Made by a program: the position numbers and the translations under genes. A stretch of DNA of 64,000 nucleotides, from positions 186,001 to 250,000 of the forward strand of contig JAJFJD010000001.1 in assembly GCA_021774335.1 (NCBI GenBank), in the 5' to 3' direction. The DNA comes from Alphaproteobacteria bacterium. Its GTDB lineage: Bacteria > Pseudomonadota > Alphaproteobacteria > UBA8366. Below the pieces are notes generated by a model. It worked only from the letters and a program-made list of their open reading frames with translations. It was not told where the DNA came from and did not search any database. How positions within the stretch are numbered: position 1 is the first letter of the stretch; each line of letters opens with the position of its first letter. Below, in pieces: positions 1,114 to 64,000 of this stretch.

Positions 1114-2364
1114 ATGGCACGAATGGAGGATCTGCCCGAAGGCGAACGGGAGATGCTGCGGACGATCGAACTGCCGACGTTCGAAACGACACCCTTCGTG
1201 CGCGGCGCGCCGCTGTCGAAACGCCGCGTCGCGATCGTCTCAACAGCAGCGCTGCAGAAGCGCGACGACAAGATCTTCGATATCGGCGAGAACAGCTACC
1301 GGATCATTCCGGGCGACGTCGATCCGAACGAGGTGGTTATGTCGCACGGCTCGGCGAATTTCGACCGGACCGGCTTCCAGCAGGACCTCAACATATGCTT
1401 TCCACTGGAGCGGCTGCATGAGCTTGCCGCCGAAGGCTTCATCGGGTCCGTCGCCGATTTTCATTATTCGGTCTCGGGCGCGGTCAGTCCGCAGCGCAAC
1501 GAAGAATCGGTGCGCGAGATCGCCCGTCTGATGAAGCGGGAAGCCGTTGATACGGTTCTCCTGGTCCCGATATGACCGAAATGCACGCGCGCCGTCGGCG
1601 GGCTTGCCCACTACATCGAAGACGAGGGTCTCTCGACCACGCAGATCAGCCTCGTTCGCCTTCATACCGAGAACATCCGGCCGCCGCGGGCGCTCTGGGT
1701 GCCGTTTGAACTCGGCCGTCCGCTCGGCCAACCGAACGACCGGGATTTCCAAACACGCGTGCTGAAGGCGTGCCTCGGGCTGATTGAAGCGGACTCGGGC
1801 CCGGTGCTCGAGGACTATCCCGAGGACATACCCGCCGAAGCCAAGGCCACCGCTGGGGATATGACCGGCATGGTCTGCGAGATCGAGCTGCCGGCGCCGC
1901 CGTCCGACGACAACAGCCTCACCCAGGCTCTCATCGCCGAGATTGGCCGGATGCGGCCCTGGTACGAGATGGCCGTCAACCAGCGCGGCCGCACGACCGT
2001 CGGCGTGAGCCAGCTTTCCATCGAGGACGCCGTCCGCTATCTGGTGGACTTCATCGAGGAACCGGCGACCCCGAGCCGGCGCGACGATATCAAGGCCGGC
2101 CCGCTCCTCAAGCTCGCGTGCGAAGACCTCAAGGCCTTTTACGGCGAAGCGATGTCGGCCCAGCCCGGCATGTCGTCGAGCCGCGCGGTGGAGCATTGGC
2201 TCTGGAACGAGACCGCGCTCGGGCGCGCGTTTTGGAAGTTCCGCGAAGAGAACACCGATCACCCCGACAGCTACACACGGTATCTAGCGCAGCGCACCCT
2301 GATCCCGGACCGGCAGCTCCACTTCAAGGATGCCCCGGTATTCGAGACCGATAGCTCGATGTAA
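1114..2364 (+). CDS. Selenoprotein B family protein (GrdB/PrdB-like) with in-frame UGA at codon 154
   Basis: The frame of 417 codons is broken only by TGA at 1573-1575, after the residues LLVPI, and continues as PKCTRAVGGLA. This gives a Sec-Pro-Lys-Cys redox motif in place of a stop. Protein similarity to the paralogue at 34379-35614 runs without a break on both sides of the TGA (for example FDRTGFQQDLN before it, ALWVP.ELGRP after it). The family is the glycine/sarcosine/betaine/D-proline reductase selenoprotein B group, in which the Sec residue attacks the substrate. The N-terminus of this short version resembles PrdB more than full GrdB. Start chosen for AAGGGG at 1101-1106. The actual substrate is unknown. 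No glycine-reductase partners (GrdA, GrdC, GrdD) are seen nearby. Confidence 0.9.
1570..1608 (+). promoter_or_regulatory. Candidate bacterial SECIS element
   Basis: The 39 bases starting three bases before the UGA are identical to those in the paralogue at 34838-34876 except for one silent change (GTC versus GTT). A hairpin can be drawn by eye. The left arm is GCACGCGCGCC (1583-1593), the loop GUC (1594-1596) and the right arm GGCGGGCTTGC (1597-1607), with nine pairs and two mismatches. The loop begins 19 bases after the UGA and contains a G, as bacterial SECIS elements do. This is inference from sequence; no folding energy was computed. Confidence 0.7.
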
Positions 2365-34378: not shown

Positions 34379-35614
34379 ATGGCACGGCTCGAAGACATCC
34401 CGCTCGGCGAGCGCAAGATGATGGAAGAACTCGATTGCTCCGGCTTCGAGGATCGACGCCCCTGGGTGACCGGCAAGCCGCTTAACGAGCGCCGGGTCGC
34501 ACTGATCTCGACGGCGGCACTGAACCTGCGCAGCGATGCAGTGTTTCAGCGGAACGCTACCGATTTCCGGGTGATCCCCGGCAATGTGGACCCGGGCGAC
34601 GTGGTGATGAGCCATGTCTCGGTCAATTTCGACCGCACCGGCTTCCAGCAAGACCTAAATGTCTGTTTCCCGCTGCAGCGGCTGCACGAGCTGGCGGACG
34701 AAGGCGTGATCGGATCGGTTTCCAATTTCCATTTTTCGGTCTCGGGGGCGCCGCACCCAAGCGACCTGGAAGACTCGGCCCGCGCCATTGCACAGACGAT
34801 GAAGGCCGACGCGGTCGATACCGTCCTGCTGGTTCCCATATGACCGAAATGCACGCGCGCCGTTGGCGGGCTTGCCGTTATTTTCGAAGAAGAAGGGCTG
34901 GCGACGACACAGATCAGTCTGATCCGGATTCATTCCGAACGGACCACCCCGCCGCGCGCGTTGTGGGTGCCCTATGAGTTGGGCCGCCCGATCGGCATAC
35001 CCAACGACGCCGAGTTCCAGAAGAACGTGATCAAGGCCGCCTTCGACCTGCTCGACGCGGAGTCCGGCCCGGTGCTGGTGGATTATCCGGTGGAGATTCC
35101 CCAAGACGCCGCCGCGCTGGACGAAGACGCGATGACCGGCATGGCCTGCCCGATCGACCTGCCGGCGTTACCGGACGAAACGGCGCCGACCAGCGAGGTC
35201 GGCAAGGCCTTGATGACCGAGATCGCGTCGCTGGCACCCTGGTACGACTTGGCGGTCACGACGCGCGGCCGCACGACGGTCGGCCCGAGCGGCCTGTCCA
35301 TCGATGTCGCCGCGAAATATGTCGCCGCCTTCCTGGACGACCAGGCCGCACCCTGCCCGCGCGACGATATGCCGGTCGCCCGTGTGCTGAAGCTCGCCTA
35401 CGAGGACCTCAAAGCCTATTACGGCGAAGCGATCACCGCGCAGCCGGGCTATTCGACGAGCAAGCAGGTCGAAGACTGGATGTTCAACGAAACGGTCTTC
35501 GGCAAAGCGCTCTGGCGGCTCCGCACGCTCTGCCTCGAAAATGAGGACGAGTATTTCCACTATCTCGGCACGAACTCAATCGTCCCCGACCGGCAGATCA
35601 ACCCGCCAAGCTGA
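34379..35614 (+). CDS. Selenoprotein B family protein (GrdB/PrdB-like), second copy, in-frame UGA at codon 155
   Basis: A frame of 412 codons with a single TGA at 34841-34843, in the context LLVPI-Sec-PKCTRAVGGLA. It is a close paralogue of the gene at 1114-2364: both begin MAR-x-EDLP/IP.GER and share YGEA and NPxxP-like segments. The second half holds ALWVPYELGRPIGIPN and TTRGRTTVGPSGLS. Family knowledge: Sec-containing reductases attack the substrate to give a selenoether, and the -x-x-Cys partner releases it. It diverges from the DMT gene and is followed by mscL. The thioredoxin-domain gene lies less than 1 kb downstream and could be its electron donor. Confidence 0.9.
34838..34876 (+). 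promoter_or_regulatory. Candidate bacterial SECIS element, second copy
   Basis: Identical to 1570-1608 at 38 of 39 positions; the one change (C to T in a Val codon) falls in the predicted loop. The stem pairs GCACGCGCGCC (34851-34861) with GGCGGGCTTGC (34865-34875) around GUU. A change confined to the loop with an untouched stem favours RNA-level constraint. Confidence 0.7.
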
Positions 35615-63555: not shown

Positions 63556-64000
63556 ATGGCCGTAAAAGTTCAGCAGGAAGACTTCGATCCCGGCGCCGAG
63601 ATGGCCACGTTGACCGACGGCAACCATGCGATCGGCGGGGTTGCCAGTTTCATCGGGCTGGTGCGCGATATGGCGAAGGGCGAACAGATCGGCGCCATGA
63701 CGCTGGAGCACTATCCCGGCATGACCGAGAAGATGCTCGCGGAGATCGAGGCGGAGGCGCATAAGCGCTGGCCGCTCGACGCCAGCCTGATCATCCACCG
63801 CTACGGCCGGCTCGAACCCGGCGACCGGATCGTCCTGGTCGTCACGGCGAGCGCCCATCGGGAAGCCGCCCTTGAGTCCTGTCATTTCCTGATCGACTGG
63901 CTCAAGACCAGGGCGCCCTTCTGGAAATTGGAAGAAACCGAAGACGGCGCCGGCAGTTGGGTCGATGCGCGCGATAGCGACGACGCGGCGGCCGAGCGAT
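63556..64000 (+). CDS. moaE: Molybdopterin synthase catalytic subunit MoaE (cut by the window end)
   Basis: The visible 148 codons start MAVKVQQEDFDPGAEMATL and include ASFIGLVRDMAKGE and VVTASAHREAALESCHFLIDWLK (residues 95-117), with the conserved Arg and Lys of the active site. The usual family length is about 150, so nearly the whole gene is present. A TGACGGGAGGTTGAG ribosome-binding region precedes the ATG. The stop lies beyond the window. Confidence 0.95.
   Translation, partial: MAVKVQQEDFDPGAEMATLTDGNHAIGGVASFIGLVRDMAKGEQIGAMTLEHYPGMTEKMLAEIEAEAHKRWPLDASLIIHRYGRLEPGDRIVLVVTASAHREAALESCHFLIDWLKTRAPFWKLEETEDGAGSWVDARDSDDAAAER

Follow-up and report, generated by a model that had tools for sequence, protein, structure and literature searches.

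A 39-base block around an in-frame UGA codon, found in two paralogous genes of the window (the whole 64,000-nucleotide stretch of alphaproteobacterial DNA analyzed here), is almost certainly a bacterial SECIS (bSECIS) lying within the coding region, which SelB would bind so that the UGA is read as selenocysteine (Sec). The bacterial Sec pathway comprises SelB, Sec-tRNA and the SECIS (PMC13188914, PMC4513850). The data establish a conserved, covarying hairpin, the loss of this pattern in Cys-encoding homologues, and a genome that carries selA, selB, selC and selD. The Cys-encoding control, the covariation and the Sec machinery strongly support the SECIS-type RNA element of the original prediction, and by analogy with known elements we infer its recognition by SelB and the insertion of Sec.

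Two paralogous genes with an in-frame UGA

The genes and their UGA codons are located as follows.

1114..2364, + strand: putative PrdB/GrdB-like selenoprotein gene, copy 1; 416 aa, predicted Sec at 154
34379..35614, + strand: putative PrdB/GrdB-like selenoprotein gene, copy 2; 411 aa, predicted Sec at 155, open with TGA read as Sec
1573..1575, + strand: Sec UGA codon of copy 1; TGA in 111/111 aligned Sec-type genes of the long family, Cys codons in Cys-encoding relatives
34841..34843, + strand: Sec UGA codon of copy 2, from the sequence read and the codon alignment

The ATG-to-TAA frame of copy 1 is open only when the TGA at 1573-1575 is read as Sec. The two copies share 57% protein identity and 65% DNA identity. 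Both exceed the gathering cut-off of 22 bits for the GRDB superfamily (PF07355), with 28.3 bits for copy 1 and 24.1 bits for copy 2, and both matches span the C-terminal part of the model only. Scores against the PrdB model TIGR04483 (108.6 and 88.6 bits) lie under its 300-bit equivalog cut-off; this match ends near residue 225, and the C-terminal part of the protein extends beyond it. Judged by their sequences, both copies appear to be PrdB/GrdB-like selenoproteins with the motif U-P-K-C, for which D-proline reductase activity is not demonstrated. A search of the genome for PrdA, run without a positive control, gave zero matches, and a sequence search of the PDB found zero solved relatives. 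The genome holds seven PrdB-family genes, each with one in-frame TGA.

The shared block is conserved at silent sites

Direct reading and the codon alignment both confirm that positions 1570-1608 agree with 34838-34876 at 38 of 39 bases. The block of copy 1 reads ATATGACCGAAATGCACGCGCGCCGTCGGCGGGCTTGCC, and the lone difference is base 27, the third base of Val161, which is C in copy 1 and T in copy 2. No other 39-base window of the codon alignment matches as well (overall identity 65%), and identity between the copies ends at the element's edges. All 13 residues of the block are identical between the copies. At silent sites, the copies agree in 11/12 comparable codons within the block and in 114/208 in the rest of the alignment (Fisher P=0.0098, a test that treats the block as pre-set), a modest excess that is suggestive when the pair is taken alone.

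To place the pair among its relatives, 80 named loci from public genomes, together with loci from relatives and from the class, were aligned at the Sec site, where TGA was present in 90/90 first hits. Silent identity in the U-P-K clade, whose 13 representatives are as little as 50% identical in protein, was 0.69 in the block vs 0.43 outside (P=0.0006); windows at the block ranked top of 180, and the best non-overlapping 13-codon window reached 0.57.

Among 50 long-family representatives (<75% identity), no silent site in the gene varies less than that of the Ala codon at Sec+6 (GCC in 47/50, z -16), which has an observed entropy of 0.33 vs 1.78 predicted from own-gene codon usage. A Mann-Whitney test over six family-wide columns did not reach significance (P=0.23), because codons in the outer part of the block can vary freely at this depth. 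The conserved unit across the long family is thus the apex, and the whole block is not frozen. The description of the block as nearly frozen is accurate for these two copies but does not extend to all orthologues: in two orthologues of copy 1 (L112 and L113), the stem has been altered to another, still paired sequence.

Covariation defines a six-base-pair stem

The hairpin is numbered with the UGA as nt 1-3, and its parts are as follows.

1587..1603, + strand: SECIS core, copy 1 (17 nt, nt 15-31); stem 1587-1592 / 1598-1603, pentaloop CGUCG 1593-1597; covariance model (CM) score 58.1 bits
34855..34871, + strand: SECIS core, copy 2; stem 34855-34860 / 34866-34871, pentaloop CGUUG 34861-34865; CM score 49.1 bits
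1582..1608, + strand: whole predicted hairpin with lower helix, copy 1; MFE fold -14.4 kcal/mol, lower helix without covariation support

Compensatory changes among homologous genes, the check proposed with the original prediction, hold the 6-bp stem (15-20/26-31). In 59 cells both sides of a pair had changed, against 16.2 in shuffles, and the covariation score of 0.472 (0.179 shuffled) was matched by 0/500 shuffles and lay far above that of every slid version of the stem. Pairing is kept through changes on both sides at 15-31, 16-30, 18-28 and 19-27, and 20-26 is an invariant C-G; pair 17-29 forms throughout the short family and in roughly two thirds of long-family sequences. Some of the double changes divide the long from the short subfamily, but when each subfamily is analyzed by itself two pairs still exceed shuffles, 16-30 and 15-31 in the long and 15-31 and 18-28 in the short. 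RNAalifold on all 54 sequences gave a 5-pair consensus without 17-29. In single-sequence folds the hairpin forms, with a stability not unusual against shuffles (z about -0.8).

The core supported by these data spans nt 15-31 and consists of a 6-bp stem and a CGUNN pentaloop, unlike the 11-bp imperfect stem and three-base loop originally proposed. Of the 11 stem positions claimed in the window copies, nine are paired and two are mismatched (C.U and G.G), and the outer helix 10-13/33-36 pairs no better than shuffled sequence (52.8% vs 54.8%). Similarly, the C21-G25 pair that would close a three-base loop is missing in 21/54 sequences and shows no covariation, so neither feature was retained as conserved.

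The G.G mismatch falls at 17-29 (1589 with 1601; 34857 with 34869), four pairs below a three-base loop, and occurs in 17/54 long-family sequences. Two more long-family selenoprotein genes (L091 and L092) lie in tandem on contig C55 of the same genome; in one of them the loop is GGUCG, not CGUNN.

The hairpin pattern is lost in Cys-encoding homologues

Homologues that encode Cys at the site serve as a natural control. We compared 165 dereplicated Sec homologues with 19 dereplicated Cys homologues, of which 16 belong to the short subfamily and three to the long. The motif CCGUNNG, at a constant distance from the UGA, is present in 159 of the 165 Sec homologues and in one of the 19 Cys homologues (P=6e-19, a value that overstates independence, as do all the homologue P values, the sequences being phylogenetically related). 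The three pairs adjoining the loop are present in 164/165 vs 3/19, and the hairpin is the MFE structure in 143/165 vs 4/19. In the Sec homologues, G22 is found in 165/165 and U23 in 164/165. In these alignments the hairpin pattern tracks Sec and not the active-site peptide.

The Val at Sec+7 seems at first to be invariant for protein reasons. However, it is dictated by the RNA, because 164/165 Sec homologues but only 8/19 Cys homologues have Val there. One long-family gene (L134, 1-1221) carries CGA at the Sec site with its hairpin intact, which would mean either that Sec was lost recently or that the sequence contains an error. A TAG-containing relative (L221) was considered as a possible UAG-Sec gene and rejected, because it has TGC at the site and its TAG at another position.

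Alternative explanations for the block

An identity of 38/39 within one genome, against 65% overall, is what might be expected if a short tract around the Sec codon had recently been copied from one paralogue to the other by gene conversion. We consider this very improbable. The block is nearly unchanged across genera and families (L106, L108-L111, L130 and L019), and the tree places the paralogues in two different, well-supported clades that both include members from other families, so that the two copies are old. Each copy also has the variable loop base in common with its close relatives, C in L107, L009 and copy 1 and T in L106, L108-L111 and copy 2. The identity stops at the boundaries of the element, and a conversion tract of 39 bp would be unusually short. 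On the sequences compared, gene conversion is not needed to explain the block. Similarly, the conserved peptide UPKCTRAVGGLA could by itself hold the block constant if matching codons simply reflected a GC-rich genome, an argument that draws on the residue identity of the pair and on its modest silent-site test. Protein constraint and codon bias alone are nonetheless a highly unlikely cause: Cys homologues whose active-site peptides are closely similar (C-P-N-C-T-R, C-P-V-C-H-Q) do not keep the silent pattern and often lack the Val, the entropy at Sec+6 is far below that predicted from each gene's own codon usage, and the compensatory changes require RNA pairing.

The remaining alternative, that the UGA is a real stop codon followed by a separate or degraded gene, is barely credible. 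TGA is a stop in table 11, and the list of open reading frames splits the gene accordingly (967-1575 and 1699-2364), but the protein alignment runs straight through a TGA that is kept in every aligned Sec-type gene of the long family, relatives have Cys codons at the site, and the Sec machinery is complete.

Sec machinery and genome-wide search

The genome encodes tRNA-Sec (selC), SelA, SelB and SelD. The selD gene (L211, 1501-2430), from an unrelated protein family, has its own in-frame UGA, followed by AGCACC-GUC-GGUGCU with the same CCGUCGG apex; its loop G-U lies one base nearer the UGA than in the PrdB-family genes. The selD hairpin is an independent case beyond the PrdB family. Another selD-like gene (L212) lacks a UGA.

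When the 5.4 Mb genome was searched with the covariance model, exactly seven sites were found (E 1.5e-10 to 3.6e-7; next E=1.7), all of them PrdB-family genes. This result shows specificity more than discovery, because the model was trained on a set that included some of the seven genes or close relatives of theirs. A match at window position 63611 (14.6 bits) was within noise and was discarded. Rfam at gathering thresholds found only a tRNA in the window and no SECIS, and a search for formate dehydrogenase alpha gave zero hits over the cut-off and zero with an in-frame stop.

Proposed mechanism and comparison with known elements

In the reading we favor, a bSECIS within the coding region, nt 15-31 would fold during translation into the 6-bp stem capped by the CGUNN loop. 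The loop, with its invariant G22-U23 over the C-G closing pair, would be bound by SelB carrying Sec-tRNA(Sec) and GTP, and SelB would deliver Sec as the ribosome reaches the UGA, giving Sec154 or Sec155 and not a stop. The silent sites and the identity of Val161 would then be held by the RNA, not by the protein.

The published bSECIS model has a loop of 3-9 nt with G in the first two loop positions followed by U/G, a stem of 4-16 bp, a spacing of 16-37 nt and an MFE <= -7.5 kcal/mol (PMC13188914). The element described here fits this model (bSECISearch) in its position after the UGA, small G-then-U loop, stem of 4-16 bp, spacing of 17-18 nt and MFE of -14.4 kcal/mol. No feature breaks the model, and the loop is best written as CGUNN with pairing of its ends optional. 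As expected of a bSECIS, the UGA is replaced by Cys codons in relatives, and the host has SelA, SelB, SelD and tRNA-Sec.

In E. coli fdhF, the minimal SECIS is nt 15-31 from the UGA, and E. coli SelB requires an unpaired U at position 17 (PMC8659212). The core described here occupies the same interval, also has a loop G-U, and likewise has an outer part of less importance. However, its loop G-U occupies 22-23, while that of fdhF (G23-U24) lies one base farther from the UGA (PMC8659212), and the bulged U17 is absent; position 17 is nearly always G or A and in most sequences is paired with 29. The G.G mismatch of the window copies sits roughly at the height of the bulged U17.

The value of these data lies in a well-supported SECIS model, built on covariation, for a large family of selenoproteins from Alpha- and Betaproteobacteria; bSECIS elements have so far been hard to capture in one common model.

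Codon preceding the UGA

1570..1572, + strand (copy 2: 34838-34840): AUA (Ile) codon immediately preceding the Sec UGA, a conserved rare-codon choice

AUA precedes the UGA in 9/11 Ile-type representatives (expected 1.2), the highest of 30 Ile columns, and GUG is depleted there in Val-type genes (3/38, expected 15.7). This preference is unexplained by the hairpin; it is reasonable to guess that codon context affects either termination or the insertion of Sec. For the Val-type genes a different cause is possible, because three long-family Cys homologues also carry GTC before the site. A tentative extension, which we hold to be possible but rather less than probable, is that the recoding signal reaches upstream, with the preceding codon (AUA; GUC/GUU, not GUG) selected jointly with the hairpin (the P-site tRNA might, for instance, slow RF2 or aid SelB), and that SelB of this lineage reads the CCGUNNG apex across unrelated selenoprotein families without the bulged U of E. 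coli.

PrdB-family selenoproteins in marine samples

PrdB genes with Sec number 42 in the Sargasso Sea set, and the GOS data have 235 Sec vs 110 Cys forms (PMC1088965, PMC2398784). The UxxC motif is common to the marine proteins and those described here. The parts of the marine studies consulted (PMC1088965, PMC2398784) do not describe a hairpin for the family. The present set is genome-resolved and alphaproteobacterial, with seven copies. Genomes of the same order (e.g., G425) carry up to nine PrdB-family genes, mostly with one in-frame TGA.
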